Below, piece after piece: positions 1-17,217 of a stretch of 17,217 nt of DNA (positions are counted from its first letter, which is position 1; each line of letters begins with the position of its first letter). Under the pieces are notes generated by a model. It did not search any database and was not told the DNA's origin. It worked only from the letters and a program-made list of their open reading frames with translations. Made by a program: the position numbers and the translations under genes. The stretch spans positions 1 through 17,217 of the forward strand of contig BDTG01000037.1 of NCBI GenBank assembly GCA_002897695.1, given 5' to 3'. Origin of the DNA: a bacterium BMS3Abin14. Its GTDB lineage: Bacteria; BMS3Abin14.

Positions 1-1
1 A

Positions 2-2450: not shown

Positions 2451-2490
2451 TCAGATTTCCTCTTCCTGATATCCGGTATGTCGCAGCTGC

Positions 2491-3087: not shown

Positions 3088-3130
3088 CTTATTTCTCCCT
3101 CCCCGATCGCTTTGATGACGTCGAGTATTT

Positions 3131-3169
3131 AGTTTGAAGTTGCAGGCTGACAGCCCGCAACTTCAAACT
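3131..3169. repeat. Perfect 13-bp stem-loop between nikM and nikL
   Basis: AGTTTGAAGTTGC (3131-3143) and GCAACTTCAAACT (3157-3169) are perfect reverse complements around a 13-base loop that itself contains GGCT-GAC-AGCC. The structure lies in the transcript between the nikM stop codon and the nikL start. There is no U-run on the operon strand, so it is more likely an RNA processing or stability element, or an inserted repeat, than a terminator. Confidence 0.7.
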
Positions 3170-3195
3170 CCCAAACTCCCAAACTCTCAAACTCT
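3164..3195. repeat. Four tandem 8-bp units (CAAACTCC/CAAACTCT)
   Basis: Two copies of CAAACTCC are followed by two of CAAACTCT with no gap. The first unit overlaps the right arm of the hairpin at 3131-3169, and the last overlaps the end of nikM, so the final codons and stop of nikM (AGA GTT TGA) are written within the repeat. Such an array could vary in copy number by slippage, which would change the nikM 3' end. Confidence 0.7.
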
Positions 3196-3795: not shown

Positions 3796-3870
3796 AGCTT
3801 TTTGTCCTGCTTCCTGGTTTCAGGTTTCAGATTGCGGGGACGCGATCGGAACATGGATAACGGATGGTCT

Positions 3871-3954
3871 TGTCATCGCGAGCAGATCCCATACAACGCG
3901 ATCCCGTCAAGATTTATGAGATTGCCGCGCTTTTTTCAGTCGCTCGCAATGACA
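3871..3954. mobile_element. 84-bp palindromic repeat element with TGTCATYGCGAGC ends (MITE-like)
   Basis: The ends TGTCATCGCGAGC (3871-3883) and GCTCGCAATGACA (3942-3954) are inverted copies with one mismatch in 13. The interior contains GAGATTGC, part of a widely seen intergenic element with TGTCATTGCGAGC ends (family recognised from memory, no search done). It carries no gene. It sits in the nikK-nikM gap and would be transcribed in the operon, forming a long hairpin. A non-autonomous transposable element is the most likely origin; an RNA-processing role in the operon is possible. Confidence 0.75.
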
Positions 3955-4005
3955 TCTTTTGGTTCTCCGCAACTATCCTACCCCCTCGCCCATTAACCCA
4001 CCGGG

Positions 4006-4773
4006 TCATTTCATGTCCCTCGTCCGGACCCAGATGACCGCACCTATCTCCACGGGGACCTTCTTCCCGTCCCTCTCCATCATTTTATCTCTCTCCGAGA
4101 TGGCGGCAAAGCCCCACCACCCCGCACGTGGAATCCCGTAGCAAAAAACCCCGTTGGAATCCGCCTTGACCACCTGGGTGAGGTAAGGATCGGCCGGAGG
4201 CTTAACATTATCCGTGTTCAGATATTCAACCTCCACCTTGGCGTAAGGCGCCGGTCTGCCGTTTATCTTTACGATCCCGCGAAAGACGTTCCCGGTCCAC
4301 AGGCCATAGGGGCGACTCAGGGGAACGATCTCCGTCTTCATGCCAACCTCGGCGTCCCATCCCCTTTCCAGTCCGAACGCGTTTACAACGACCTTCGTGT
4401 AGTGAATGATGTACCGTCCCTCGGCCGGTTCCCAGTACGGCTCCGGCTCGACGAAGAAAACATAGTCGCCTGGACGTTTGATCTCGTAATTGGCGGTCCA
4501 TGTGGAAAATTCGCCCACCTTTTTCTCGCGAAGGGCCCCGGTCAAGTCGATCTTCTTGTCGCGGAAAAGCACCCCGAAACGGGAAGGCTTTTCCATCTGC
4601 ATATAGCTATTATCCATTGGATGGATGAACATGGCATGCAGAGTAACTATTCTTCCTTCACCCTGGGAAACGATATCGTCACTCGGGATCAGCGCTCCGA
4701 AATGGGCATGAGCAATCCGGGCCTGAGTCGCCAGCGCCGCTGCCACAAAAATGATCAACATCCATCTTTTCAT
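4006..4773 (-). CDS. nikK: Periplasmic DUF4198 (NikK-like) nickel uptake accessory protein
   Basis: This 255-residue exported protein heads the nickel operon. A signal peptide ([23 protein letters not shown]) should leave a mature N-terminus starting with histidine ([10 protein letters not shown]), a probable metal ligand that parallels the mature start of NikL. The body matches DUF4198/NikK proteins: [16 protein letters not shown], a beta-sandwich domain, a tryptophan-rich stretch ([19 protein letters not shown]), a DADNGVF-like turn ([20 protein letters not shown]), and a C-terminal EIGAVIWVR. Such proteins bring metal to the membrane component in ECF nickel or cobalt systems. The ATG at 4773 is preferred over an upstream TTG at 4788 because a strong Shine-Dalgarno (GGGAGGGGG) lies between them. 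A probable promoter and a weak candidate NikR site lie just upstream. Confidence 0.85.
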
Positions 4774-4804
4774 ATATCCCCCTCCCAAAGAAAATACGTG
4801 TCAT

Positions 4805-4832
4805 GTAATCATATAATCGTGCTACGATATAC
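4805..4832. promoter_or_regulatory. Weak candidate NikR-type operator upstream of nikK
   Basis: A 28-bp window begins GTAATC and ends ATATAC on the + strand. This equals the overall length of the known Escherichia coli NikR operator (GTATGA, 16 bases, TCATAC), but only GTA on the left and ATAC on the right agree. Inside it is TCGT-GCT-ACGA (4817-4827), a short perfect inverted repeat. The site would lie just downstream of the predicted nikK -10 box, where a repressor would act. The match is marginal and the call is tentative. Confidence 0.3.
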
Positions 4833-4837
4833 CCGAC

Positions 4838-4867
4838 CTAATACAAATTATTGTTACGCACTGTCAA
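4838..4867 (-). promoter_or_regulatory. Sigma-70-type promoter of the nik operon
   Basis: On the minus strand TTGACA (4862-4867) is followed after 18 bases by TATTAG (4838-4843), four of six matches to TATAAT; TGTATT at 16 bases is an alternative. The transcript would start near 4830, about 57 bases before the nikK start codon. The perfect -35 box is shared in an inverted repeat with the divergent promoter at 4889. Confidence 0.55.
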
Positions 4868-4888
4868 GACAATTATTTTTCCCGGAGC

Positions 4889-4917
4889 TTGACAAAAGGA
4901 TTGCCGAGGAATATTTT
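4889..4917 (+). promoter_or_regulatory. Sigma-70-type promoter of the ABC exporter operon
   Basis: TTGACA (4889-4894), a 17-base spacer, then TATTTT (4912-4917). Transcription would begin near 4925, about 105 bases before the ATPase gene. The -35 region CTTGACA is the mirror of TGTCAAG at 4862-4868, so the two divergent operons have back-to-back promoters. Confidence 0.5.
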
Positions 4918-5029
4918 TTCTCCGGAACATTTCGAGGGGCCTTCACTACAGCTGAATCCAAACAGGTTTACGGAGCCTGCACCGTTCCGTTTCCGGAGGG
5001 GAATATTCAGACAGGAGGTGGTGTTCATT

Positions 5030-6001
5030 ATGGAATCGCGGATTGAGGTCCGTAGCCTGCATAAATCGTTCGGGGCCATAACCGCTGTAAACGACATCAG
5101 TTGCGAGGTGAGGACAGGGGATGTCCTCGGCTTCCTCGGCCCCAACGGCGCCGGAAAGACAACCGCTATGAGGATGATAACCGGATACCTGACACCTGAC
5201 AAGGGGTCGGTGTCCGTATGCGGTATTGACGTGCTCAAGCACCCCGTGGCGGCAAAGGAGAAACTCGGCTATCTCCCGGAGGGGGCCCCCCTTTACCCGG
5301 AGATGACCCCGGCTTCATTTCTGGGTTTCGTCGCGCGGATACGGGGCATCGAAGGAAGTGAAAGGACAATTCGCCTCTCCGAGATCGCCGAACTCGTTCA
5401 TCTCAAAGAGGTCTGGAAGCAACCCATTGAGACGCTGTCAAAAGGATTCAAAAGAAGACTGGGGCTTGCCCAGGCCATACTCCACGACCCGCCTGTCCTG
5501 GTTCTGGATGAGCCCACCGACGGCCTGGACCCTAACCAGAAACGGGAGGTGCGAGACCTCGTCAAAACCATGGCGAAAGACAAGGCTATCATTATCTCAA
5601 CACACATCCTGGAGGAGGTCCGGGACGTGTGTAACCGTGCCATTATCATAACCCGGGGAAAGATCGTGGCCAACGGAACCCCGATGGAACTGGAGGCAAT
5701 GTCGTCCTACCACAACGCCGTTTCCATCCTCCTGTCCGCGAAACAGGAGGAGTCTCTAACCACCGCACTCAATGACCTCCCGGATGTCGCAAGGGTATTA
5801 TCCGAAACCGTGAACAGCGACACGGTCCTTTGCACCGCCTTTCCCCAAAACGGGCGACCCATCCTGGCGAAGATCGCGGACCTCCTGAACTCGGGACCAT
5901 GGCACATCCTGGAATTGCGGCAGGAATCCGGCAGGCTGGACGAGGTTTTCCACAATCTGACCGTCCCGGCGAAAGATCCCAACGAAGGGGGGCGGGCATG
6001 A
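5030..6001 (+). CDS. ABC exporter ATP-binding protein, GldA/CcmA-like
   Basis: This 323-residue cytoplasmic ATPase of an ABC-2 type exporter is related to those annotated as 'gliding motility' GldA, although the family is widespread in non-gliding bacteria. Motifs: Walker A GPNGAGKTT at 37-45; GYLPE near 80, replacing the usual Q-loop glutamine as is typical of this family; signature LSKGFKRRLGLAQ at 136; Walker B LVLDEP (Asp160, Glu161) followed by TDGLDPNQK; and His192 in ISTHILEEV. The C-terminal ~100 residues form the accessory domain of this family (NAVSILLSAKQEESLTTALN). I chose the ATG at 5030, not the upstream ATG at 4889, because AGGAGGTG lies just before it and the upstream stretch lacks homology-like character and overlaps the promoter. 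The stop overlaps the permease start (ATGA). Confidence 0.9.
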   Translation: MESRIEVRSLHKSFGAITAVNDISCEVRTGDVLGFLGPNGAGKTTAMRMITGYLTPDKGSVSVCGIDVLKHPVAAKEKLGYLPEGAPLYPEMTPASFLGFVARIRGIEGSERTIRLSEIAELVHLKEVWKQPIETLSKGFKRRLGLAQAILHDPPVLVLDEPTDGLDPNQKREVRDLVKTMAKDKAIIISTHILEEVRDVCNRAIIITRGKIVANGTPMELEAMSSYHNAVSILLSAKQEESLTTALNDLPDVARVLSETVNSDTVLCTAFPQNGRPILAKIADLLNSGPWHILELRQESGRLDEVFHNLTVPAKDPNEGGRA

Positions 6002-6729
6002 AACGCATGACATCTATCTACCGGCGTGAAATGACATCGTACTTTTCCACCCCGCTGGCGTACGTATTCATAGTCATATTCCTGGTCCTCACGGGAACAT
6101 TTACGTTCTACCTGGGCGGATTCTTCCCCAGGGGGCAGGCCGACCTCCAGCCATTCTTCACCTGGCACCCATGGCTATACCTTTTTCTCGCTCCGGCCCT
6201 TGGAATGCGGTTGTGGGCCGAGGAGCGAAAAACCGGCACCATTGAACTTATCCTGACCCTGCCTGTTTCCACGATGGAGGTGGTCCTTGGCAAGTTTCTG
6301 GCCGCATGGACCATGATCGCCATATCCCTGAGCCTTACCTTTCCCATCTGGATTACCGTAAACGTCCTCGGTCAGCCCGACAACGGGGTGATCGTGGCAG
6401 GATATTCAGGGAGTCTTCTGATGGCCGGGGCATATCTCTCCATCAGCGCGTTCTTTTCCGCATTGACCCGCAGCCAGGTTATTGCTTTCGTTATCTCTGT
6501 CGCGGGGTGTTTCGTTTTTCTGCTTTTCGGGTTTCCCATCGTCCTGGACTTCTTCCGCCCATGGCTTCCCTCGGCGGTGGTTGAGATGCTCGGATCCTTC
6601 GGTTTCCTCCAGCACTTCAACACCATAATCGAGGGGGTCCTCGATTTCAGGGACATCGTTTATTTTCTCACCTTTACTGTCCTGTGGCTTCTGGCCGGCG
6701 TCTGGGCCGTCAATCGCTGCAGGGACTAA
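5998..6729 (+). CDS. ABC-2 type transporter permease, GldF-like
   Basis: This 243-residue inner membrane permease pairs with the ATPase encoded upstream. It has six predicted hydrophobic helices: about 20-40 (TPLAYVFIVIFLVLTGTFTF), 55-75, 103-125 (AWTMIAISLSLTFPIWITV), 140-160, 165-190 (VIAFVISVAGCFVFLLFGF) and 215-240. The pattern YRREMTSYFSTPLAYVF, then RLWAEERKTGTIELILTLPVS, is characteristic of the ABC-2 permeases annotated GldF or YhaP-like; the EERKTGTIELLL segment marks the coupling region. The ATG overlaps the stop of the ATPase gene, showing translational coupling, and the GldG-like gene follows 16 bases later. The substrate is unknown. The annotated role in gliding comes only from Flavobacterium relatives and should not be carried over. 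Confidence 0.88.
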   Translation: MKRMTSIYRREMTSYFSTPLAYVFIVIFLVLTGTFTFYLGGFFPRGQADLQPFFTWHPWLYLFLAPALGMRLWAEERKTGTIELILTLPVSTMEVVLGKFLAAWTMIAISLSLTFPIWITVNVLGQPDNGVIVAGYSGSLLMAGAYLSISAFFSALTRSQVIAFVISVAGCFVFLLFGFPIVLDFFRPWLPSAVVEMLGSFGFLQHFNTIIEGVLDFRDIVYFLTFTVLWLLAGVWAVNRCRD

Positions 6730-6745
6730 AAAGGAGGTCCGACAG

Positions 6746-8650
6746 ATGAAAAACGGAAAATTATTGACGACAGGCGGCCTCCTCGCGGCAGTAGCCATCT
6801 TCATTTTGATCAACACGGTCGGCAGGCCACTTTTGCGATCCATACGGCTCGATCTTACTCAAAATAAGGTTCACACACTGTCAAAGGGAACCGTCCACAT
6901 CCTTGAATCACTGAAAACTCCTGAAAAAATACAACTCTACTGGTCGGCAACGGCTGCAAAGGACATGACCAGCCTCAAGCTCTTCGCACAGCGGGTTATA
7001 GATCTTCTGGATGAATACTCATCGGTTGCGGGGGGGAAACTGACTTTTGAGGTCATCGATCCCGAACCATTCTCAGAGGCGGAGGACAACGCGGTCCGCT
7101 ATGGAGTACAGGGAGTTCCCACCGGGAGCAGCGGCGACACTCTCTACTTCGGCATCGTTGGGATCGGAAAAGACGGCAAGCGCCAGGTCATCCCCTTTCT
7201 GCAACCCGACCGCGAGAGCTTCCTGGAGTTCGACCTGAGCCAGATGGTCTACTCCCTCGATCATCCGGAAAAAACCAAAGTGGGTCTGCTGAGCGCCCTT
7301 CCGCTTATCGGTGGTCCGTCGCCTCGCAACCCGTTCAGCATGGAGCCTCCCTGGACCATCGTGGGTCAGCTGCGCCGTCAGTACGACCTGAAGATTTTGT
7401 CCAAAAACGAGCAGAATATCCCCGATGATATCAGGGTTTTGATGGTCGTCTATCCTCAAGGTCTTGGCAAACGGTCTCTTTATGCAATTGATCAGTTTGT
7501 TCTACGCGGGGGGCACGCTCTTGTCTTCGTGGATCCCATGAGCGAGTTCATGGCGGGACAGGGTCCAGCAGAAGGATCAACCGCCGGGTATGGGCCTGAC
7601 AACCTGCTCCACTCTTGGGGGGTAAGGCTTGAACCGGGCAAGGTGGTTGGAGACATGGCCGCGGCGCAACGGGTAAGCTACAAGGGCCGGTTTCGAACCG
7701 AGGTCGTCGATTATCTTCCATGGCTCGCCGTCAGGGGCAACATGCTGAACAGGGACGAGGTGGTCACCGGTCAGATTGACCAGATCAACCTGGCCAGTGC
7801 AGGGTCTCTGACACCTGTAAAGGGTGCCAGGACAGATTTCGTACCCCTCATGCAATCCACATCACAGGCGATGCTGCTTGACCGCAAACAGCTTGCCTTC
7901 CCCCCGGACCCGAAAAAGCTTATCGCCGATTTCAAACCGGCAGGCAAACCCTTTACACTGGCTGTACGTATCAGCGGGCCTGCTGATACTGCATTTCCTG
8001 ACGGGCCTCCCCCGCCGGAGAAAACGGATAAACCGGCAAATAAGGGACAAAAAAAAGCGAAACAGGAAGAACAGATCATGATCTCCAAAGGTCCGATCAA
8101 CGTTGTTGTGGTTGCGGATACGGACATGCTTCAGGACAGGTTCTGGGTTACTGTACAGAACTTCTTTGGAAGGCGCATACTCATCCCCAACGCAGGCAAC
8201 GCCGATCTGGCCATTAATGCCATCGACCAGCTTGGCGGCAGCTCGGACCTCATCGGTATCCGGGGACGCGGGACATCTTCCCGACCGTTTACCCTGGTGA
8301 AAAAGATCCAGCAGGAGGCAGAGCGCAAGTATCGGACCAAAGAGCAGGAACTGACCGCAAAACTGGATGGAACCGAGAAGAAATTAAACGAGCTTCAGGG
8401 AAAGCGCAAGGATATCGAATCTGCCAAACTGACGCCTGAGCAGGAAAAGGAGGTTGCAAAATTCCGGGAGGAAAAGGTCAGCATCCGGAAGGACCTCAGG
8501 GTGGTTCAATACCAGCTCAGGAGAAACATCGAGAGGCTGGAAACACTGCTGAAATTCATCAACATCGTTTTAATCCCCATCCTCATCGCGCTTGGTTCCA
8601 TTATTGTGTGGTTCGTACGGCGAAAAAGGGACATGGGATTTCCGGCCTGA
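6746..8650 (+). CDS. GldG-like ABC-type auxiliary protein with periplasmic domain and C-terminal coiled coil
   Basis: This 634-residue membrane-anchored partner of the ABC-2 exporter starts with a transmembrane helix (about 10-28, GGLLAAVAIFILINTVGRP) followed by RLDLTQNKVHTLSKGT, the hallmark N-terminal segment of GldG-type proteins. A large extracytoplasmic domain follows with VFVDPMSEF and VVADTDMLQDRFW motifs typical of the family. Lys/Pro-rich low-complexity sequence lies near 430-450, a charged coiled coil at about 530-600 (EQELTAKLDGTEKKLNELQ), and a closing transmembrane helix (about 603-624) ends in VRRKRDMGFPA. It starts 16 bases after the permease with AAGGAGG as Shine-Dalgarno. 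Many related operons carry a DUF4340 gene next; none is present here. The substrate is unknown. Confidence 0.87.
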   Translation: MKNGKLLTTGGLLAAVAIFILINTVGRPLLRSIRLDLTQNKVHTLSKGTVHILESLKTPEKIQLYWSATAAKDMTSLKLFAQRVIDLLDEYSSVAGGKLTFEVIDPEPFSEAEDNAVRYGVQGVPTGSSGDTLYFGIVGIGKDGKRQVIPFLQPDRESFLEFDLSQMVYSLDHPEKTKVGLLSALPLIGGPSPRNPFSMEPPWTIVGQLRRQYDLKILSKNEQNIPDDIRVLMVVYPQGLGKRSLYAIDQFVLRGGHALVFVDPMSEFMAGQGPAEGSTAGYGPDNLLHSWGVRLEPGKVVGDMAAAQRVSYKGRFRTEVVDYLPWLAVRGNMLNRDEVVTGQIDQINLASAGSLTPVKGARTDFVPLMQSTSQAMLLDRKQLAFPPDPKKLIADFKPAGKPFTLAVRISGPADTAFPDGPPPPEKTDKPANKGQKKAKQEEQIMISKGPINVVVVADTDMLQDRFWVTVQNFFGRRILIPNAGNADLAINAIDQLGGSSDLIGIRGRGTSSRPFTLVKKIQQEAERKYRTKEQELTAKLDGTEKKLNELQGKRKDIESAKLTPEQEKEVAKFREEKVSIRKDLRVVQYQLRRNIERLETLLKFINIVLIPILIALGSIIVWFVRRKRDMGFPA

Positions 8651-8807
8651 CGGGCTTGGGAGGTTCTGCCGTCTGATGCCCCTAAGGTGTACAGCGAAAT
8701 TGTAGTTCAAAATAGCATACAATCTGGGATATCAATGCCAAACAGCAACCAGCCCTTGACAAGCAGCAAAAATACCGGTGAAGTGCGGCCCAAGGAGGGG
8801 TACGCAT

Positions 8808-9533
8808 ATGAAAAGGAAAACACTTCTGCTGGTGGACGACGCCGAACTGTTTCTGGTTATGGAAAAATCTTTTCTTTCCAGAAAGGAACTCGACCTGCAT
8901 TCGGCGACGTCCGGGATAGAAGCCCTTGAAATTGCCCATACGGCCAAGCCGGATCTGATACTTCTTGACCTTCACATGCCCGGCATGGATGGCGACGAGG
9001 TGTGTACAAAACTTAAGGCCGACCCCGACACTGAACATATCCCGGTTATCATCGTAACATCCGAGAGGAATCCTGAAACTCTGAAGAGGTGCATCAACGC
9101 CGGGTGTGACAGGATCATCTACAAACCATTTACCAGACAATCTCTCATTGGCGCCGTTCAGGAAGTTCTGGTTCTGATTCAGCGACGCTACCCGCGTACG
9201 GAGGTCAGCCTGGGATGCACTGTGGGGGTCGGAAGCCTTAAACTTGAGACCACCATGCACGTCCTGTCGAAAGGCGGGGCTTTTATCGAGATGGGCATCC
9301 CACCGGACTCCGGTTCCGAAATAGAGGTGTCCTTCGCCCTTCCCGAATCAAATTATACTATCTCAACCTCGGCCATGGTCCGATGGGCCGCCAGCGTCCG
9401 AAGGGGCGGCCCGTTGGGAATGGGTGTCGAATTCCTGACCATAGAGGAAGCCGAACGCGAACTTATCCAGGCATACATTGATGAGGAGATGAAAAAACAG
9501 CGGCGGAAAGCCGCCGGCATCGCGGAGGAGTGA
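8808..9533 (+). CDS. Response regulator receiver domain fused to a PilZ domain
   Basis: This 241-residue protein is a likely switch joining two-component phosphorylation to cyclic di-GMP signalling or a PilZ-type protein interaction. The receiver domain (1-~118) has acidic Asp10/Asp11, phospho-acceptor Asp54 in LILLDLHMPGMDG, Thr84 in IIVTS and Lys106 in YKPF, so all key residues are intact. The PilZ domain (~125-230) keeps RRYPR (the RxxxR motif at 126-130), but the second c-di-GMP motif DxSxxG reads VLSKGG at 152-157, with Val in place of Asp. Binding may therefore be weakened or lost. PilZ-type GMGVEFL follows. I chose ATG 8808 because it has AAGGAGGGG upstream; the in-frame ATG at 8778 has none. 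No histidine kinase is adjacent. It converges on menA. Confidence 0.9.
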   Translation: MKRKTLLLVDDAELFLVMEKSFLSRKELDLHSATSGIEALEIAHTAKPDLILLDLHMPGMDGDEVCTKLKADPDTEHIPVIIVTSERNPETLKRCINAGCDRIIYKPFTRQSLIGAVQEVLVLIQRRYPRTEVSLGCTVGVGSLKLETTMHVLSKGGAFIEMGIPPDSGSEIEVSFALPESNYTISTSAMVRWAASVRRGGPLGMGVEFLTIEEAERELIQAYIDEEMKKQRRKAAGIAEE

Positions 9534-9536
9534 AAG

Positions 9537-9557
9537 GCATGGGGTCAGACCCCATGC
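9537..9557. repeat. Perfect 21-bp palindrome (GCATGGGGTC-A-GACCCCATGC)
   Basis: A 10-bp perfect inverted repeat with a single central base lies between the convergent stop codons of the receiver-PilZ gene and the prenyltransferase gene. The core GGGGTCAGACCCC resembles palindromes I have seen scattered between genes in many environmental proteobacteria, some near REP-type Y1 transposases (from memory). With no U-tract and almost no loop, it is not a normal terminator as drawn, though the cruciform or RNA hairpin could still end both transcripts. Confidence 0.6.
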
Positions 9558-9581
9558 GACCCGACAAGAGATTCGGATCTG

Positions 9582-10472
9582 TCAGTGGATGAAGTAGGCT
9601 ATGGCCATGAGAAAGTCTATCCCCAGGACCAGACCCACGTTGGCCCCCTGTGCCGCGATCATCTTCTCGAAATCGTCATGGTTCCTCAGTGTGGTGACAG
9701 CGGCTTTAAAAGCGAGGGGGAGGGTCAGGAGGGTGATGAGCATCGAAACCGGAAAAACGCCCGATATGACACCCCATACGATGAACCCGTAGCAGACGCA
9801 TAGAGAAGCCGTGTAGACCCGCGCCGAGACCGACTTCCCCAGGACGATAAGAAGGTGACGCCGCCCTCCTGAACTGTCCGCTTGCAGATCCGGGAATTCA
9901 TTCAGGAAGAGCAGCAGGAACGTTAGGATGCCCGGCGGCACGGAGGCCAGCAGCACCGTGGTGTTCAGCTCCCCGGTCATGGCGATGAAAGTTCCGACGA
10001 CTACCATGCTCCCGAGGCACACGCCCGCGAACAGCTCTCCCAGGGCGATCTTGGCCAGGCGGCTTGTGTAGAACACCGTCGTCACCCCCCCCACCAGGAT
10101 GAATCCCAAGAGGACCCAGCCTGACCGCCACGCCAGGTACACCCCGATGATCCCAGCCAAAACCAGGGTGCCCCACGCGGCGATCCTGACACCCAATTCC
10201 GAGGTGAGGCCCGCCTGCAGGTTCCCGCTCCCTCCTGAGAACGGTGTTCTCCTGGTCAAGGAGTCGATGTTGGTCCGGAAATCTGAAAGTTCATTGAAAA
10301 GATTGACGGAAGCGTGAGCCAGGACCGTACCTGCCAGGCACAGAAAAAAGAGCAAAAAGCTGAACCGTCCGTATTCGTGGGCCAAGGCGCCCCCGATAAG
10401 AACGAGAAAAATGGCCAGAAGAAGGAACGGCGCTCGTACCTGGGCAGCCCAGACAGTGATTTTTTTCTTCAT
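9582..10472 (-). CDS. UbiA-family prenyltransferase, probable MenA-type (menaquinone pathway)
   Basis: This 296-residue membrane protein with 8-9 hydrophobic helices matches UbiA-superfamily prenyltransferases, which join an isoprenoid chain to an aromatic acceptor. The two magnesium-diphosphate motifs are visible: NELSDFRTNID (Asn60, Asp64, Asp70, the spacing seen in MenA) and NEFPDLQADSSGGRRHLLIVLG (Asn191, Asp195, Asp199, the usual second motif with following conserved Gly/Arg and a LxxxLG ending). The most likely job is 1,4-dihydroxy-2-naphthoate prenylation to make menaquinone, consistent with an anaerobic respirer, but other acceptors are possible and no men genes are adjacent. The ATG at 10472 has a Shine-Dalgarno AAGGGAGA. 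The upstream sequence is the degraded toxin/IS region, which may have replaced its native promoter. Confidence 0.8.
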   Translation of the reverse strand: MKKKITVWAAQVRAPFLLLAIFLVLIGGALAHEYGRFSFLLFFLCLAGTVLAHASVNLFNELSDFRTNIDSLTRRTPFSGGSGNLQAGLTSELGVRIAAWGTLVLAGIIGVYLAWRSGWVLLGFILVGGVTTVFYTSRLAKIALGELFAGVCLGSMVVVGTFIAMTGELNTTVLLASVPPGILTFLLLFLNEFPDLQADSSGGRRHLLIVLGKSVSARVYTASLCVCYGFIVWGVISGVFPVSMLITLLTLPLAFKAAVTTLRNHDDFEKMIAAQGANVGLVLGIDFLMAIAYFIH

Positions 10473-10506
10473 CTTCTCCCTTCAGCTCTAAAACGCGAAC
10501 GAAATA

Positions 10507-10656
10507 TTACCACATCGTCACTTCGTTTTGCATATCTTCGAAGTAACGTCCGGGCGTGACGAAGGTGGACCCGTCACGGCGGTGGGCTATTCTCACGACA
10601 ATAACAAGAGCCACTTCGTCATTGATTCGGTAGAGAATGCGATATTTTCCCTGGCG
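10507..10656 (-). pseudogene. 3' remnant of a RelE/ParE-type toxin gene
   Basis: The last ~49 codons of a 89-codon chimeric frame read GKYRILYRINDEVALVIVVRIAHRRD, the closing strands of RelE/ParE toxins (…GKYRIxYRI…VxVVxIxHRxxxY). The N-terminal half is missing: at 10657 the frame switches directly into a fragment of an IS4-type transposase gene. No antitoxin gene is recognisable next to it. A product made from the chimera would lack the front of the RelE fold, so this is treated as a broken gene. Confidence 0.7.
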
Positions 10657-10820
10657 AGCCGCGAGCAAATAGACGCATAAAGCAACCCATATTTGACTCT
10701 TGACGGCATTGGGGGAGGTCCCGAGGAACGCATTTATTCGTAAATGTTGTTTGATCCATTTGAAGAACAGCTCCACTTGCCAGCGCTGCTTGTAGATCGC
10801 AGCGACCGTAAGTGCCTCAA
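10657..10820 (-). mobile_element. Internal fragment of an IS4-family transposase gene
   Basis: These 164 bases match 13681-13844 of the intact insertion sequence in this window without gaps and with eight mismatches (about 95% identity). They encode transposase residues ~281-335, including the Y-R-E-K signature (Y290, R293, E297, K304). Neither IS end is present: the similarity begins and ends inside the transposase gene. It is therefore a leftover of a second, older or diverged, copy of the same family. Confidence 0.88.
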
Positions 10821-10868
10821 TTTTTTAGGGGAAATTGAGTGGAGGTCGGCAATCACGATCGGTGCCGA
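10816..10868. repeat. Two small perfect stem-loops past the 3' end of fic
   Basis: CTCAATTT (10816-10823) pairs with AAATTGAG (10832-10839) around TTTAGGGG, and TCGGCA (10846-10851) pairs with TGCCGA (10863-10868). They follow the fic stop codon on the minus strand. The first lies at the edge of the IS fragment. Either could act as a weak transcript end for fic, but U-tracts are poor. Confidence 0.4.
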
Positions 10869-10873
10869 TTTTC

Positions 10874-10918
10874 ATTCTATTTCCCCCCCTCAGGATAGAG
10901 GCGGGGAAAATAGAATCC
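10874..10918 (-). terminator. Long hairpin covering the last codons of fic, possible terminator or mRNA 3' structure
   Basis: On the minus strand ATTCTATTTTCCCC is followed by its near-perfect reverse complement, GGGGAAATAGAAT, with one bulged T; the inner bases (GCCTC/GAGGG) add further pairs, giving about 17-18 pairs around a short loop. The stop codon of fic (TAG at 10877-10879) lies inside the right arm. After the stem comes GAAAATCGG and not a U-run, so it is not a standard rho-independent terminator. It is more likely a stabilising 3' structure. Confidence 0.4.
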
Positions 10919-12085
10919 GACAGCCTTGATTGGAAACGCCGCCCTGAGCGGTCCCTTGTCGGAATCAGATTGCAACAGGTTCTTATCGAGGAGCTGTTTC
11001 ACAACCCGCCGCCCCGTCCGCTCGGCTTTGCCTGTGAGCAGGGCCGCTTCGCCGCGGGAAACCCGGCCACGAAGAAACACTTGCTGTAAAACCTTCCCGG
11101 ACCCCCTGGGCAATTCATCCATCAGGACCTGTTGCTGCGCGTAAGCCCCTATCCTTTTCTGCATCCCATCGAGATCCAGCAGGTTCCGCATAAAATCCAC
11201 CTGATCCAGCATTGTTTCGAGGAAGAACCTGCAGAAAAGGACAAGGCCCTGTTCCGAGAGATTTCCCCTGCCATCCAGATCTCCACGGCGGTGCTCGTCC
11301 GCTTCCGCCAGGGCGGTGAGATACTCGTTCCGGCGGCGGGCAAGACCCCTTGAAACAGCCCACATCCCATGCCCATCCAAACCAGCCTTGATGAGGTAGG
11401 CGTGGGTGAAGATCCTGGCAACCCTCCCGTTCCCGTCCAGAAAGGGATGGATCCAGGCCAGCCTGTGGTGAGAGGCCGCAGCTGCTATTACCTTGTTTAC
11501 GCTGTCCAGACCGGCAGGATTGTAGGCTTCTGAGAAACGGGCAAGAAAGAGCGTCAACGAGGAAGCTGCGGGAGCCAGGTGCCTTCCCACCTCCACCCCA
11601 TCATCTCGTAGTTTGCCGGGCCTGACGATGCGTGTTGCCCCATCGGGCGCTTTGACCTCTTTAAATTCTTCCGGCAAATGGTCGTAGAACTGTCTGTGAA
11701 TCAGGCAGAGAAATTCCCTCGAACAGATGTCAGTCTCAGGTTCCATCTCGAGGAGCTGTTCAGTAAACTTCTGGACCTCGATGTGCGCAATGCTCTCCAT
11801 CTGAAGCGCGCGCTTTGCAGGATCTCCTGAATAATCTTTTGCCAGGGCTTTTTCTATATCCACCGGGTGAGTGTCATGACCTTCGATAAGATTTGAGTAG
11901 AAGCTGTTCATGGCGCGCACCAGCTCCCCTATACCTTTGGCGGTTTCGCGATGAACAGAAGATCCCAGCGCTGCTGAACGACGGACCACATCGAGTGCAA
12001 GGTCTCGCAGTTCTCCGCTCGAATCCGGCGGGAGCATGGGCTCCATCTGGGAGGGGATGGTGTAAAGGACTCCATTTTGGGTCAT
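10877..12085 (-). CDS. fic: Fic domain protein (class II, self-inhibited) with C-terminal winged-helix-like segment
   Basis: This 402-residue protein is a likely AMP-transferase that modifies a target protein's hydroxyl side chain using ATP. The catalytic Fic motif HPFLDGNGRVAR is complete at 213-224 (His213, Asp217, Asn219, Arg224). An N-terminal inhibitory helix carries the class II motif S-N-L-I-E-G at 64-69, in which Glu68 would block productive ATP binding until released. The last ~90 residues (RVSRGEAALLTGKAERTGRRVVKQLLDKNLLQ) look like a winged helix-turn-helix, common in this Fic subfamily and suggesting DNA binding or autoregulation. The ATG at 12085 has GAGGA eight bases upstream. 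A promoter and 12-bp direct repeats lie just upstream. No separate antitoxin gene is seen, as expected for class II. Confidence 0.92.
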   Translation of the reverse strand: MTQNGVLYTIPSQMEPMLPPDSSGELRDLALDVVRRSAALGSSVHRETAKGIGELVRAMNSFYSNLIEGHDTHPVDIEKALAKDYSGDPAKRALQMESIAHIEVQKFTEQLLEMEPETDICSREFLCLIHRQFYDHLPEEFKEVKAPDGATRIVRPGKLRDDGVEVGRHLAPAASSLTLFLARFSEAYNPAGLDSVNKVIAAAASHHRLAWIHPFLDGNGRVARIFTHAYLIKAGLDGHGMWAVSRGLARRRNEYLTALAEADEHRRGDLDGRGNLSEQGLVLFCRFFLETMLDQVDFMRNLLDLDGMQKRIGAYAQQQVLMDELPRGSGKVLQQVFLRGRVSRGEAALLTGKAERTGRRVVKQLLDKNLLQSDSDKGPLRAAFPIKAVGFYFPRLYPEGGK

Positions 12086-12121
12086 TTTCGTTATCCTCGA
12101 ATTTCCGGCTGAACGGGAGAA

Positions 12122-12150
12122 GACATATCATACACGAGAATATGTGTCAA
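12122..12150 (-). promoter_or_regulatory. Sigma-70-type promoter of fic
   Basis: On the minus strand TTGACA (12145-12150) is followed after 17 bases by TATGTC (12122-12127), a weak -10 match (three of six). The transcript would start near 12115, about 30 bases before the fic start codon. A pair of 12-bp repeats begins three bases upstream of the -35 box, a usual place for an activator or repressor. Confidence 0.5.
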
Positions 12151-12152
12151 TA

Positions 12153-12176
12153 ATTGGCCGATGTATTTGCCGATCT
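12153..12176. repeat. First pair of 12-bp direct repeats upstream of fic
   Basis: ATTGGCCGATGT and ATTTGCCGATCT follow each other with no gap (two mismatches between them). They match the second pair at 12261-12284 to a consensus WTTGGCCGATMT, and lie immediately upstream of the predicted -35 box of fic. The 12-bp spacing is close to a helical turn, as expected for two protein subunits bound side by side on one face of the DNA. Confidence 0.75.
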
Positions 12177-12260
12177 ATTAAGCACACATTGAAGGAAATC
12201 TCTTGTTATTTCAGATAAATAAAGGCTGGAAAGATCTTATAGCTTAAATATACCCGGTTT

Positions 12261-12284
12261 TTTGGCCGATATATTGGCCGATCT
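12261..12284. repeat. Second pair of 12-bp direct repeats upstream of fic
   Basis: TTTGGCCGATAT and ATTGGCCGATCT are contiguous and copy the first pair, which begins exactly 108 bp away (nine repeat lengths, about ten helical turns). Two spaced tandem pairs suggest a looping or cooperative operator rather than chance. Confidence 0.75.
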
Positions 12285-12343
12285 TATGCGGGAGGGGCTG
12301 AAGGGGGAGGGTTCCGATTCGAGGGGGATGGTCAGTTCCAACA

Positions 12344-12373
12344 GTGTACAGGTACACCGGTGCACTAGTGCAC
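12344..12373. repeat. Four 8-bp units forming two adjacent 14-bp palindromes
   Basis: The units GTGTACAG, GTACACCG, GTGCACTA and GTGCACTT follow each other at an exact 8-bp period. Units one and two make the palindrome GTGTAC-AG-GTACAC, and units three and four make GTGCAC-TA-GTGCAC, with CG between. This looks like a binding array for a dimeric regulator. No regulator gene is adjacent apart from Fic itself and the HicA-like operon. Confidence 0.7.
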
Positions 12374-12490
12374 TTAAAAACCGCCTCCTGTGACATCCTG
12401 AGAAGACTGGAAACCTGAGAGTCTGGACCCTGACCTTACGTTATTCTCATTTGTCTGATGGTCATCGGAAAAAGGCTGTGGAGTTACTGG

Positions 12491-12808
12491 TTAGGGAGGC
12501 CAATTATGAAAGCGGAACTTTATAAAAGTCCTTTTTTTTGTAAGGTGAAGATTGTATTCTTCTGCTGTCATAGGACACTCAAGCAAATCTCTTGCTTCTT
12601 GCACGCGGTCTAGCCTGAGTTGCTTGCGAATCTGCGTAAGAAGATCACCTGAAATATCTCTCATCTTTCGCGTGTGAGAGATTTTTGTAAATATATCCGT
12701 CAGTTTGCCATTATGTCGATGCCTAAAAAATATGTGATGACCTTGAGGGTCTCTCTCGAAACCTTTTTTTTGAAGGCTCGCTTCCATATCTTTTCTATCT
12801 ACGGGCAT
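12491..12808 (-). CDS. 105-aa HicA-like small basic protein
   Basis: The small protein begins with a pattern like HicA toxins: RKDMEASLQKKGFERDPQ, then GHHIFFRHR, resembling the GSH-type motif whose histidine is catalytic in HicA ribonucleases (His24/His25 region), followed by a beta-strand and THxRKM-like helix (ISHTRKMRD). The rest (RKQLRLDRVQEARDLLECP) extends beyond the ~60 residues of typical HicA and ends with a basic, aromatic tail. The resemblance is in the dsRBD-like alpha-beta-beta-beta-alpha order, not in overall similarity. No HicB-like antitoxin is adjacent; the 148-aa gene lies five bases upstream and the start has no clear Shine-Dalgarno, which suggests coupled translation. Function: uncertain; an RNA-binding or RNase role is inferred. 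Confidence 0.65.
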   Translation of the reverse strand: MPVDRKDMEASLQKKGFERDPQGHHIFFRHRHNGKLTDIFTKISHTRKMRDISGDLLTQIRKQLRLDRVQEARDLLECPMTAEEYNLHLTKKRTFIKFRFHNWPP

Positions 12809-12813
12809 GATGA

Positions 12814-13260
12814 CTATTCGAGTTTGAATGAACCAAGAAACACTTCTTTTAATCGAACAGCTTCCCCAAGTAGTTGCTCTACTGGAGTATCTTGGTAATG
12901 TTCAAACTGGCACACGACTTGAACACTAAAATCACTAATTGCGTCTTGGTCGGTATCACCAGCGGCAAAAATACTTAATGCTTCATTTTCCGCAAAATAT
13001 AGTCGTTCACCTCGCCTTACTTCGACTTCAATGGGTTGGCTTGAGGTTACAGTTGTTACGGGTGCGTCATTATCCTTTTTGGCAACAAACTTCCAGAGAG
13101 GATAACGAACAATTGCAGTATGCCGCCATGCGGCTGCAGGGGAATCTGAAAAAGCGCCTAATGCTCCCTCCACTGTAGAAGTAACAACTCTCCGCCAACC
13201 AGAAAGCGGTGGATCATAATCTTGTGCACGCTCTTCTTGAAAGGCAAGCGCACTTTTCAT
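12814..13260 (-). CDS. Uncharacterised 148-aa protein, middle gene of a three-gene operon
   Basis: I do not recognise this protein. It has no signal peptide or membrane segment and is acidic overall. The first ~50 residues have Trp/Arg-rich segments (PLSGWRRVVTSTVEG and AAWRHTAIVRYPLWKFVAKK); the middle looks beta-rich (PIEVEVRRGERLYFAENEALSIFAAGDTDQDAISDFSVQV written here in two parts, 75-95 and 96-115). The end (TPVEQLLGEAVRLKEVFLG) is helical. Its ATG overlaps the TGA of the upstream truncated gene (ATGA) and its stop is five bases from the HicA-like gene, so all three were made from one coupled mRNA. Base composition is AT-richer than the neighbouring core genes, consistent with acquired DNA. 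Confidence 0.7.
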   Translation of the reverse strand: MKSALAFQEERAQDYDPPLSGWRRVVTSTVEGALGAFSDSPAAAWRHTAIVRYPLWKFVAKKDNDAPVTTVTSSQPIEVEVRRGERLYFAENEALSIFAAGDTDQDAISDFSVQVVCQFEHYQDTPVEQLLGEAVRLKEVFLGSFKLE

Positions 13261-13508
13261 AATGTATCTCCTCTGAGATATTGTCTGTAGTTGTCTGTAA
13301 TGAGTTCTTCAAAAAGCTTTCGAGTATAACCATGCCCCTCATCTATATACTCTTCAACAGAGTTAAAATTTAGATTATCCTCTTTAGCATAATCAAAATC
13401 TAAAAGAAATGCCTCACCACTTCCATCAGCGCGCTCAAGCGTTTCTAGCGTGGTTGTAATCTTGCCCCCATCAGTTTCGGAAACGAAATTTAACTTGAGT
13501 ATCAGTAG
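13257..13508 (-). pseudogene. 3' part of a gene truncated by the IS insertion
   Basis: A minus-strand frame is open from the IS boundary at 13508 to a TGA at 13257-13259. It encodes about 83 residues ending in EELITDNYRQYLRGDTL, with LLDFDYAKEDNLNFNSVEEY and IDEGHGYTRKLFEEL before that. The ordered pattern of an acidic LxDFD strand, then a helix with GHxxxRKLFEELIT resembles the C-terminus of the sporadically distributed TIGR04255 family, but I hold that loosely. The start is missing: the remaining ~190 codons of such a protein cannot fit in 14825-15220, beyond the IS. The gene is coupled to the 148-aa gene by an ATGA overlap, so it was the head or an early gene of this operon. Confidence 0.7.
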
Positions 13509-13519
13509 TGTCCGGTTAA
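13509..13519 (+). repeat. Left inverted repeat of the IS
   Basis: TGTCCGGTTAA. It matches the right end in ten of eleven positions. The transposase stop codon (TAA on the minus strand) is at 13516-13518, within this repeat. Confidence 0.75.
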
Positions 13520-14685
13520 TAGTTGAACAAATTCAACTGGTTACGGTCAGGCAGGTCTGGGGTTTGCTTGAGCGCGGCTGTAACTAGTGAATAAATAGGC
13601 TTTTTCTCAAACAAATTGACCTCCAGAATCTGTAGAAAAGTGTAGAGCGTACATGGGACTTCGAGCTGTTTCTTGGTAATAGCCACGAGCAAATAGACGC
13701 ATAAAGCAACCCATATTTGACTCTTGACGGCATTGGGTGAGGTCCCGAGGAACGCTTTTATTCGTAAATGTTGTTTGATCCATTTGAAGAACAGCTCCAC
13801 TTGCCAGCGCTGTTTGTAGATCGCGGCGACCGTTGGTGCCGCAATCTTAAAATTGTTAGTGAGAAATACCAATCGTTTGTTTCGGTCTTTATCAACGTAG
13901 CTGACCCGGCGCAAAGGCTCTGGGTAGCCCTTCTTAGATTTTTGGGTGACCAGTGTAACAATCTGGTCGGCTCGAATGCCAGCCTCTTTGTTCTTGGGCA
14001 AAGAGTAGCGCCGCTGATAACGCAGATTGTTTTTGGCTCGCACTACGAAAAAAGCGCCCTGCAGATGAATCGCATAGAGCCGGGCGAAGTCGACGTAGCC
14101 GCGGTCCATGGTATAGATGGCCTCTCCGATGACAGGCATTGCGTCAAGCATCTTGACGTCATGCACCTTGCCGGTTGTAACGGCCACAAATGTAGGAATT
14201 GGGCCACGCAAATCAATCTGCGTATGCATCTTAACAGCAGCCTTGGCCTTGCGGAATTCAGCCCAAGGGAACACAGAGAGACACAGATCAATGGTCGTCG
14301 AATCAAAAGCAAACAATGGCTGTCGCAACTCAATGGCCAAAGGTTCATTCTGGTAGAGCCGTTGTGCTATGCCAATTAACACTTGCCCAAAATCTTGAAA
14401 AACACGCCAGTCGCGACGTTCATTGGCATCGGCAAGAGTGGACCGGGCAATTTTACCTCGAAAGCCGATATGGTAAAGTTTTTCCCGATGAGAGTTCAAG
14501 CACGTTTCGATGTCCCTTAAACTCTCGCGACCCGCTAACTGGGCATATGCCAGACAAAGAAACTGGTCAAATGTGGAGAAGCCTCTGGTGCCATGCTCAC
14601 CCCAATATCGTTGGACGCAGCAGTTGAATTCGTACCGAGGAAGAAACTGAAGTAGTTGCCTGAAGACAGACTGACCAACGTTCAT
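13516..14685 (-). CDS. IS4-family DDE transposase (DUF4372 N-terminus)
   Basis: This 389-residue transposase moves the surrounding IS by cut-and-paste. The N-terminal ~75 residues (MNVGQSVFRQLLQFLPRYEF) match the DUF4372 segment typical of the ISPepr1-like group of IS4. The DDE catalytic core is complete: Asp128 in FAFDSTTIDL, Asp194 in YTMDRGYVDF and Glu297 in YKQRWQVELFFKWIK, where Y290, R293, E297 and K304 make the Y-(2)-R-(3)-E-(6)-K signature. The C-terminal tail (PDLPDRNQLNLFNY) is normal for the group. The gene is full length with no frameshift, and the start codon at 14685 has a strong Shine-Dalgarno AAGGAGGG, so the element may still be active. Confidence 0.95.
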   Translation of the reverse strand: MNVGQSVFRQLLQFLPRYEFNCCVQRYWGEHGTRGFSTFDQFLCLAYAQLAGRESLRDIETCLNSHREKLYHIGFRGKIARSTLADANERRDWRVFQDFGQVLIGIAQRLYQNEPLAIELRQPLFAFDSTTIDLCLSVFPWAEFRKAKAAVKMHTQIDLRGPIPTFVAVTTGKVHDVKMLDAMPVIGEAIYTMDRGYVDFARLYAIHLQGAFFVVRAKNNLRYQRRYSLPKNKEAGIRADQIVTLVTQKSKKGYPEPLRRVSYVDKDRNKRLVFLTNNFKIAAPTVAAIYKQRWQVELFFKWIKQHLRIKAFLGTSPNAVKSQIWVALCVYLLVAITKKQLEVPCTLYTFLQILEVNLFEKKPIYSLVTAALKQTPDLPDRNQLNLFNY

Positions 14686-14813
14686 TGAGATACCCTCCTT
14701 TATGATGTCAGGAAGGTATCACCCCCAAAACCTCGGGTGCGAGTTCAAATCGAAAAATAATAATTGTGCCAAAGAGCTAATATATTCAGCATGTTACAGT
14801 GATACTCAAAAAT

Positions 14814-14824
14814 TTTACCGGACA
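14814..14824 (-). repeat. Right inverted repeat of the IS
   Basis: On the minus strand from 14824: TGTCCGGTAAA. Further agreement with the left end stops after this point. Confidence 0.72.
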
Positions 14825-14850
14825 GCAGTGAAGAAGTATCTGAAATAGTT

Positions 14851-14916
14851 CCTTCCGACGCCGTCGAGCTTCACCGCGGCGACCTGTCCCGGCGAAGCTA
14901 CAGCGACGGTGGAAGG
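14851..14916. repeat. Long imperfect hairpin, possible mobile palindromic element
   Basis: The arms CCTTCC...GCTTC...CCG (14851-14879) and CCGG...GAAGC...GGAAGG (14888-14916) are inverted copies with a few mismatches and one bulge, around a loop of about eight bases. The GC content contrasts with the DNA to its right. It has no gene and no attC core (GTTRRRY), so I do not call it an integron site. Confidence 0.55.
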
Positions 14917-14982
14917 TCCGACCCCAGGCCTTTCGCGGCGCCAACAGGCAGGCTGGGAGTGATTATCGTCGGAATATACTTT

Positions 14983-15011
14983 TTGACATGAATAAAATGA
15001 TGTTCTATAAC
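14983..15011 (+). promoter_or_regulatory. Strong sigma-70-type promoter of the DUF3015-DUF4105 genes
   Basis: TTGACA (14983-14988), a 17-base spacer, then TATAAC (15006-15011), five of six matches to the -10 consensus. A second copy of the whole TGTTCTATAAC segment lies 18 bases on (15019-15029). Transcription would start near 15018, leaving a leader of about 200 bases. Confidence 0.7.
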
Positions 15012-15029
15012 GAAACGGTGTTCTATAAC
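15001..15029 (+). repeat. 18-bp spaced repeat of TGTTCTATAAC over the promoter
   Basis: TGTTCTATAAC occurs at 15001-15011 and 15019-15029, and a weaker copy ends in GTAAC at 15046-15050. The first overlaps the -10 box and the others lie downstream. Either the -10 region was duplicated, or the sequence is a regulator site. A perfect 14-bp palindrome (AAAAGAG/CTCTTTT, 15030-15043) follows. Confidence 0.6.
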
Positions 15030-15220
15030 AAAAGAGCTCTTTTTTGTAACGTGTTTTCCGGTGCTGTTTGCAAACCGTTTGATTAACCTGTAGTCAGAAG
15101 GAGGTGAGAAAAAAGGAGCTACCGCTTAAACAGGAGTACAAAGTAAACAGCTGTTTGAGAACCTGACCAGGGAGGGATAACAACTATTAACTGATGGAAT
15201 CTATGTGGAAAGGGGAAAGG

Positions 15221-15706
15221 ATGCTTAAATCGTTAAAGTATGTTGGTCTGGCATTACTGGTTGTGTGCGCCTTCGCTCAGCCTGCCGTGGCTGGCCGTGA
15301 ATTTGCCGACATCTATACCGATTGTGGTCTTGGTGCCATGATCGCACCCCATAGTGATGGGGTTGCCGCCGTCACCAACGTAACTTGGGACCTGGGAACA
15401 ACAGCTATCAGCTCCAACATCAGCTCCCCTGATAGCTGCGGGGGTGGCAAGGAGAAAATGGCCGCCTTTGTCTATGATTCACAAGACCTTCTCCTCCAGG
15501 AGCTGGCAAACGGCAGTGGCGGCTATCTGGACGCCCTTACCGCTCTCGCCGGTATCGAAGCTGCGCAGAAAGAACTTTTTATTTCCACCCTGCGCAGCGA
15601 TGTAGGCCATTTTGTCATGACTTCTGAGTTCACCACCCAGTCCCGTTTTGAAAAAGCGGAAGCGCTTTTCAACATTGTGACCTCCAACAGTTACTATAGT
15701 CTTTGA
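15221..15706 (+). CDS. Exported DUF3015 family protein
   Basis: The 161-residue protein has a clear signal peptide (MLKSLKYVGLALLVVCAFAQPAVA, cleaved before GREF) and the DUF3015 signature: IYTDCGLGAMIAPH, VAAVTNVTWDLGTTAISSN, ISSPDSCGG, AAFVYDSQDLLLQELANGSG and YLDALTALAGI. Two conserved cysteines (in TDCGLG and PDSCGG) could form a disulphide. The function of the family is not known. Start choice: the ATG at 15221 follows a strong purine-rich Shine-Dalgarno (AAAGGGGAAAGG); the ATG at 15194 lacks one at a usable distance and would place charged residues before the signal peptide. Transcription probably starts near 15018. A hairpin terminator follows, then the DUF4105 gene. The pairing of DUF3015 with DUF4105 is one I have seen in other genomes, which suggests a shared role at the cell envelope. 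Confidence 0.9.
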   Translation: MLKSLKYVGLALLVVCAFAQPAVAGREFADIYTDCGLGAMIAPHSDGVAAVTNVTWDLGTTAISSNISSPDSCGGGKEKMAAFVYDSQDLLLQELANGSGGYLDALTALAGIEAAQKELFISTLRSDVGHFVMTSEFTTQSRFEKAEALFNIVTSNSYYSL

Positions 15707-15732
15707 TTACTTTTCGGGAAGATTAACCCTTG

Positions 15733-15768
15733 AAAGGGTGTGTTTTTCACGAGCACACCCTTTATTTT
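15733..15768 (+). terminator. Rho-independent terminator after the DUF3015 gene
   Basis: AAAGGGTGTG (15733-15742) pairs perfectly with CACACCCTTT (15754-15763) across an 11-base loop, followed by ATTTTAT. It lies 27 bases after the DUF3015 stop and 14 bases before the DUF4105 start, so read-through would set how much DUF4105 mRNA is made relative to DUF3015. Confidence 0.85.
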
Positions 15769-15781
15769 ATCTGCAGCGATA

Positions 15782-17217
15782 ATGCTACCGATGTATGTTC
15801 GCCAGCTACTCCTCTGGGTAATTCCGCTCGGTGTGCTTTTCTGCCCATTCGGTGCCTCGGGGGACGCCCCGTCCCCTTATGGAGACATCCCCTCGGAGGA
15901 GCTGAGGGGGCTGGCCGGAGACCCGACCTGGTTGAAACTTCTCCATTATAGTCAAGATGGTAAACGAAGCACGGTGCTTTCCGAAGATTTTTTCCTTTCG
16001 CCAGAGGGCAAGGCCGATCCGCTGGCTGAATTAAAAGCCACCATTGCCGCATATTTTCATCCTTGGGCCGGCAACCGGGATCAGGATCCACGATGCAGGT
16101 TTCCGGCACGCTACTACTGGTTATCGCACGAGGTGTCCCTTCCTGATTTTCGGCCCGGGAACCCTGGATGCCGACGCTTTGAAAAATGGGCCATACCTGA
16201 GACGGTACAATCAGTCAGCGTGATGATGGTAAGCGGATATCTTGGGAACCCAGCGTCAACATTCGGCCATGCTTTCCTCAAGTTCAACACGGACTCACCG
16301 GATGATGCAGGATTGTTTGATCTGACCCTCAGCTACGGGGCATTGATACCGGAAGGGGAAAATACATTCACCTATGTATTAAAGGGCCTCTTCGGAGGAT
16401 ACGAAGCGGGTTTCTCCGACCGGTATTTCTACACGAAAGACCTTGTATATTCGCACACCGAATTCAGGGACATCTGGGAATATCACCTGAATCTGACGGA
16501 TTATGAGCAGAAACTCCTTATATTTCACCTTTGGGAAATCGTCGGCAAAAAGTTTCAGTATTTTTTCTTGAGGGAGAACTGCGCCTACAAGCTTGCTGAA
16601 CTCCTGGACATCGTCGTCCCCGATGAGGTCCTCAAGAATCCAAAAGTTTGGTATCTCCCGGTTGACCTGTTTTACCGGATTATCGAGATAGATGATGCAA
16701 GACGGGAACGATCAGAGTCCCCCCTGCTACTCAATGTAGATTACGTCCCTTCGAGCCAGAAAAAACTCTATTCCCGTCTGCAATTTTTGGACTCTAAAAT
16801 GATGGCGGCCTTAAACGGCATCCTGGAAAGTGATTTTTCGTCCATACCTGGACAAATTGCAGAGTTCGACCAGGAACAGCAAATTTTGATTCTGGATGCT
16901 CTTCTGGATTATCAACAGTATCTTCTGGTAGTCCAGGGGAATGCCCCTTCCCTTGAAACCGAAGAAAAGCGGCGCCGTGTTCTTGCGGCCCGCTTTGGGC
17001 TCCCTCCGCAGCCCGTCAAAACAGCCGCCATCCGGGAGTTGCCCCCTCCGACTTCAGGGTCTCCCCCCATGACGATTGGGATCGGATCAGGACACACAGA
17101 AGAGGAGGGTTCCTATGCACTTCTGAACTGGTCTCCCTATAAAAATGAGCTGGTCGGGCAAAACAGCCTTGAGGGCGACGAACTGGTTGTGCTTGACCTG
17201 TCTGTCGGGTTCCAGCA
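15782..17217 (+). CDS. DUF4105 (Lnb N-terminal periplasmic) domain protein, 3' end outside window
   Basis: The frame is open from the ATG at 15782 (a second ATG three codons on is equally possible) to the window edge, giving 478 visible residues. A signal peptide is present (LLLWVIPLGVLFCPFGASG). The family's marks follow: RYYWLSHEVSLPDF, YLGNPASTFGHAFLKFN (His163), LTLSYGALIPEG, YVLKGLFGGYEAGFSDRYFY, YEQKLLIFHLWEIVGKKFQYFFLRENCAYKLAELLD (His/Cys region written in parts; Cys267 in RENCAYKL). The His-then-Cys order recalls permuted NlpC/P60-like hydrolases; this is inference. In this family the C-terminal part often resembles an outer membrane barrel, which would lie beyond the window. No good Shine-Dalgarno is seen, and a terminator lies just upstream. 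Weak expression is likely. Confidence 0.87.
   Translation, partial: MLPMYVRQLLLWVIPLGVLFCPFGASGDAPSPYGDIPSEELRGLAGDPTWLKLLHYSQDGKRSTVLSEDFFLSPEGKADPLAELKATIAAYFHPWAGNRDQDPRCRFPARYYWLSHEVSLPDFRPGNPGCRRFEKWAIPETVQSVSVMMVSGYLGNPASTFGHAFLKFNTDSPDDAGLFDLTLSYGALIPEGENTFTYVLKGLFGGYEAGFSDRYFYTKDLVYSHTEFRDIWEYHLNLTDYEQKLLIFHLWEIVGKKFQYFFLRENCAYKLAELLDIVVPDEVLKNPKVWYLPVDLFYRIIEIDDARRERSESPLLLNVDYVPSSQKKLYSRLQFLDSKMMAALNGILESDFSSIPGQIAEFDQEQQILILDALLDYQQYLLVVQGNAPSLETEEKRRRVLAARFGLPPQPVKTAAIRELPPPTSGSPPMTIGIGSGHTEEEGSYALLNWSPYKNELVGQNSLEGDELVVLDLSVGFQ

Follow-up and report, generated by a model that had tools for sequence, protein, structure and literature searches.

A truncated three-gene cassette in a BMS3Abin14 genome: most likely a toxin-antitoxin pair of the HicBA type behind a TIGR04255 gene

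Introduction

What do three tightly packed genes abutting an insertion sequence (IS) in the genome of bacterium BMS3Abin14 encode, and in what state has this copy been left? We analyzed the 17,217-nt stretch that carries them (GenBank assembly GCA_002897695.1, contig BDTG01000037.1, positions 1 to 17,217 of the forward strand; hereafter the window), which an earlier preliminary description had read from its letters alone. Comparison with homologues and family profiles suggests that the genes are most likely a HicBA-type toxin-antitoxin pair plus a third gene, the latter beheaded in the window. The third gene belongs to TIGR04255, a family for which a search of an open library of papers returned none that mentions it, an absence that is not proof of novelty.

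Results

The three open reading frames all lie on the minus strand and span 12491-13508, with an ATGA overlap (13257-13260) where the stop codon of the first meets the start codon of the second, and a gap of 5 bases between the middle and last genes, a packing that the preliminary description had reported correctly. The arrangement is not due to chance, as the complete set is found again elsewhere with its gene order kept. The cassette is also, as had been noticed, AT-richer than its surroundings (GC 39-46% vs. mostly 52-60% in flanking DNA) and lies beside a Fic gene (10877-12085) and IS scars, namely a 168-bp remnant (10657-10824, 95% identical to an IS4-family element) and the IS4-family element itself (about 13508-14825). 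Two further observations concern this neighborhood. Within window ORF 10507-10776, the 168-bp remnant is fused to the tail of a ParE-like toxin, and this ORF probably represents another toxin-antitoxin gene damaged by the IS. The stretch at 12150-12375, upstream of the Fic gene, contains repeats of the motif TTGGCCGAT and a palindrome, GTACACCGGTGCACTAGTGCAC, which are possibly operators.

The first gene survives as its last 83 codons (13260-13508, minus strand, stop TGA 13257-13259) and has no start codon. That it ends like TIGR04255 proteins, at first a loose resemblance, is borne out by a score of 32.9 bits to the NCBIfam model (sporadTIGR04255; curated cut-off 30), with the match covering only profile positions 198-249 of 252, i.e., the C-terminal third of a protein of about 250 aa that is absent from the window at full length. 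Its relatives are full-length: over the C-terminal third, the remnant shares 47-51% identity with the intact TIGR04255 proteins of loci L093, L070 and L068, of which the L093 protein scores 122.1 bits to the family model.

The gene is cut at 13508 by the IS4-family element (minus strand, 277.6 bits to the NCBIfam IS4 family), which encodes a transposase at 13516-14685 (minus strand), is bounded by imperfect terminal inverted repeats GTGTCCGGT / ACCGGACAG, and is the sole full copy detected in the genome. The missing front of TIGR04255 lies neither across the element on its far flank nor, by a search with the family model, anywhere else in the genome, so simple insertion is insufficient and a deletion or rearrangement must have come with it. 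Beside the right end of the element, 56 bp (14831-14886) recur at 98% identity and in opposite orientation at G000:C46:1815-1870.

About two thirds of TIGR04255 were lost in this copy, and the promoter was probably lost with the same event. A promoter search upstream of the middle and last genes gave a match count no higher than in shuffles. With most of the first gene gone and no convincing promoter found, the two remaining genes are most likely silent here, and the cassette is likely disabled. Both reading frames nevertheless remain intact, as would be expected if the damage is recent or if a promoter in the IS drives them.

The last gene (12491-12808, minus strand) encodes a 105-aa protein that scores 26.4 bits to Pfam HicA_toxin (PF07927; E = 7.6e-6), 0.6 bit below the cut-off of 27, with its relatives scoring lower, and that matches PHROG 353 'toxin'. 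A profile of four such proteins aligned to HicA in hhalign with P = 1e-3, and an enlarged profile did so at 90.9%, with a score of 36.7 vs. at most 14.3 in 150 column shuffles. His25 (12734-12736) falls at the position of the HicA catalytic histidine and is invariant among the aligned relatives. We therefore regard this gene as HicA-like and a predicted toxin, just below the Pfam cut-off yet strong by profile comparison, in agreement with what had been suspected of it.

The middle gene (12814-13260, minus strand; 148 aa) had been called unrecognized, a description that no longer applies to its C-terminal part. Its profile aligned to HicB with P = 8e-4 when built from four sequences, whereas the crossed pairs (middle vs. 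HicA, last vs. HicB, four sequences each) gave P of 0.4-0.5, and in 200 column shuffles the score of either four-sequence profile against its own partner was never reached. With nine sequences the middle profile reached 92.4% (score 41.4 vs. at most 15.3 in 150 shuffles), although the sequences added to both profiles, taken from the forms without TIGR04255 described below, were found by the profile itself or by adjacency and are not fully independent. The aligned range, about residues 73-124 (12889-13044, minus strand), marks a HicB-like core that follows a variable N-terminal extension; at the profile level the protein is thus a predicted antitoxin.

For four members of the middle family, Pfam gave no HicB family even at E = 10, and no helix-turn-helix (HTH), RHH or other DNA-binding domain was recognized; HicB antitoxins often, though not always, carry a C-terminal HTH or RHH domain. 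A scan with the single 148-aa sequence found no relatives and an alignment-based scan found one. Neither this protein nor the related one from L093 had relatives on plasmids or in viral contigs. A structure model from a two-row alignment (pLDDT 48) was too poor for structure search. A shared N-terminal tyrosine motif (a polar residue followed by Y in 11 of 20 proteins vs. 5.1 expected) was set aside because it had been picked post hoc.

Intact cassettes of the same order, with homologues of the middle gene in each, occur in L068 (G284) and L070 (G147), from two genomes of one genus, and in L093, from a Ca. Omnitrophota MAG (1999-2703, 2700-3134 and 3134-3418), so the three genes are indeed found together elsewhere. 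In a survey of the genes around TIGR04255 in 386 genomes, homologues of the two complete window proteins (P0001, P0002) adjoined only those TIGR04255 genes that most resemble the one in the window, namely L068 and L070. G001, a close relative in the same genus as the window genome, keeps the neighboring Fic region at 84% identity, and TIGR04255 and the cassette genes have no match there.

The pair also occurs without TIGR04255. The middle and last profiles, searched separately, matched adjacent genes in G045 and G174, where a protein of 312-358 aa that ends in the same core stands ahead of a HicA-like gene; G313 is similar. In the two-gene versions (L147:555-1776, L148:1501-2857, L149:1495-2879) the first protein, of 312-367 aa, carries the HicB-like core at its C-terminal end, and its gene overlaps or abuts a HicA-like gene. 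G011, from the family of the window genome, has a trio (L154:700-2045) in which a DUF3467-like gene (match below cut-off) occupies the TIGR04255 position ahead of an N-terminally extended HicB-like protein and a HicA-like one.

Beyond these close relatives, the TIGR04255 model was found in 48 of 386 genomes, in a sporadic distribution. Using a simple longest-ORF procedure for neighboring genes, we found that the next gene after TIGR04255 is tight and co-directional in 39 of the 50 loci with downstream room (26 of them overlapping), compared with 61 of 240 (25%) other neighboring pairs (binomial p = 1e-14), while a tight gene upstream (10/46) showed no excess over this background. Of 62 loci, 44 had a third gene belonging to one of eight types, in most cases with a single gene between it and TIGR04255: HEPN-like (11), 'IPDxDH' (11), 'QGD..QxCDL' (8), PIN (6), HicA-like (4), DUF7689 (2) and single others, with the HEPN, PIN and DUF7689 assignments confirmed by Pfam, which also identified a SocA/Panacea antitoxin as the second gene of one locus. 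The other 18 loci held orphan TIGR04255 genes or no recognized third gene. On the TIGR04255 tree, third-gene type changed 16 times vs. 32 with shuffled labels: it is linked to TIGR04255 lineage, yet exchanged. Read together at the level of gene order and family membership, these loci place TIGR04255 at the head of closely packed operons of three genes across dozens of lineages, the third gene being interchangeable. Sequence searches against solved structures, with the three cassette families and two of the third-gene families, gave nothing convincing.

Some of these genes lie on viral or prophage contigs. L117, L118 and L119 carry complete three-gene cassettes of the 'IPDxDH' type, and the 159-kb viral contig IMGVR_UViG_3300005573_000054 carries an orphan TIGR04255 gene without a second or third gene (L094:4001-4738), 57% identical to the HEPN-type Thermus plasmid protein, that might serve a phage as an antidote or decoy for such systems.

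The preliminary description had left a choice between toxin-antitoxin and defense cassette. The toxin-antitoxin part is supported by the HicA and HicB profile matches, but the defense part has no direct support, and the cassette proteins match no PADLOC model (the one weak match was to a HEPN relative). We consider it unlikely, though worth some weight, that TIGR04255 is the infection sensor of an abortive-infection system, holding the antitoxin-toxin pair and releasing it on a phage product, even if the sporadic distribution, the presence of cassettes and orphan genes on viral contigs, and the modularity of the third genes, as in defense systems, would all fit such a role.

A structure model of TIGR04255 (pLDDT 81, pTM 0.80) shows a two-layer sheet/helix protein; a full-length member of the family had no Pfam match. 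TBP is among its top Foldseek matches (E = 2e-4 to 1e-3), and together with the lack of a recognized DNA-binding domain in the middle proteins this would suit a TIGR04255 that serves as the operon's transcriptional regulator, binding both DNA and the antitoxin extension and supplying the DNA binding that the antitoxins lack. We consider this unlikely: TM is only about 0.3, Mediator subunits and guanidino kinases stand at the same middling level in the VIA list (Z 8-9), and neither a helix-turn-helix nor any other bacterial motif for binding DNA was recognized. No known fold was assigned from these middling matches (TBP, Mediator Med18/20, guanidino kinases), which lie in a range where likeness may reflect a common arrangement alone. 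A SecB-like chaperone was rejected at the sequence level (hhalign against a profile of eight SecB-like proteins, P = 0.35); SecB is absent among the structural matches listed for the model, which shows nothing either way.

How TIGR04255 might relate to the pair is suggested by one chimeric operon, L049. Its TIGR04255 protein shares 63-65% identity with the L044 and L048 proteins. In the middle protein, L048 is matched over residues 4-91 (31% identity, E = 2e-7) and L081 over residues 90-224 (39%, E = 5e-28); the third protein also matches L081 (57%, E = 5e-58). Within the HEPN type, middle-protein similarity is mostly limited to the C-terminal part. The pattern is suggestive of an N-terminus of gene 2 that travels with gene 1 and a C-terminus that travels with gene 3, with the N-terminal match in this single chimera at 31%. 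It would be improbable for the locus to be a plain two-gene HicBA pair sharing its operon by accident with an unrelated TIGR04255 gene, since the pairs without TIGR04255 in G174, G045 and G313 and the DUF3467-like trio of G011 are outweighed by operons that TIGR04255 heads with many different toxins, by the clustering of third-gene type on its tree, and by the tie in L049 between TIGR04255 and the antitoxin N-terminus.

Discussion

We slightly favor the reading that the site is a decayed three-gene toxin-antitoxin-type operon comprising TIGR04255, an N-terminally extended HicB-like antitoxin and a HicA-like RNase toxin, with TIGR04255 acting as a chaperone of the antitoxin. In such an operon the HicB-like core would neutralize the HicA-like toxin, and the extension would be a handle by which TIGR04255 binds and stabilizes the antitoxin, a site of action that we propose mainly because of the module split in L049; if TIGR04255 failed or were titrated, the toxin would be released. 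In the window copy, the IS event would most likely have silenced the pair by removing the greater part of TIGR04255 and probably the promoter. One point counts against this reading: were the toxin held in check only with the help of TIGR04255, the two downstream genes should not outlast its loss unless silent.

The cassette resembles type II HicAB (HicBA) systems (PMC2701414) in having a small HicA-like protein with a histidine at the catalytic position beside a HicB-like core, encoded by tight co-directional genes with a sporadic, mobile distribution. It differs in that the antitoxin gene precedes the toxin gene and TIGR04255 stands in front as a third gene, in that its HicA falls short of the Pfam cut-off by 0.6 bit and its HicB is seen by profile comparison only, and in an antitoxin that carries an N-terminal extension, with no HTH or RHH domain found. 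Two-gene surveys such as NetFlax, by their own account, cannot predict multigene systems, and HicBA is stated to have escaped NetFlax (PMC10440598).

A parallel in design is offered by toxin-antitoxin-chaperone (TAC) systems, in which HigBA, MqsRA or HicAB pairs are joined by a chaperone resembling SecB and the antitoxin bears a transferable tag at its C-terminus, a tag that also functions when placed N-terminally on test proteins; Methylomonas methanica, with its HicAB-SecB TAC, provides a precedent for such a design (PMC5105189). As in TAC, there is a three-gene operon, one protein family accompanies different toxin-antitoxin pairs, and the antitoxin has a variable extension outside its toxin-binding core, the extension and its partner appearing to be transferable modules. 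The cassette differs in that its antitoxin extension is N-terminal rather than C-terminal, and in that the TIGR04255 gene comes first, its product has no detectable SecB homology and its chaperone role is putative. Since homology between TIGR04255 and SecB is undetectable by profile, we do not file the system under TAC, although by analogy it may work like one.

More broadly, and at somewhat less than even confidence, we propose a class of tripartite toxin-antitoxin operons, defined by TIGR04255, in which a shared accessory protein, without recognized SecB homology, binds interchangeable N-terminal tags on otherwise unrelated antitoxins and so brings HEPN, PIN, HicA-like and several unknown toxins under one kind of control. 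This gives a widespread family with no assigned function a testable role as the first gene of modular toxin-antitoxin operons. If true, the TAC principle of a shared helper and a transferable antitoxin tag would have arisen again with a protein not recognizably related to SecB and would cover additional families of toxins, while several of the unknown families in third position would become candidate toxins.
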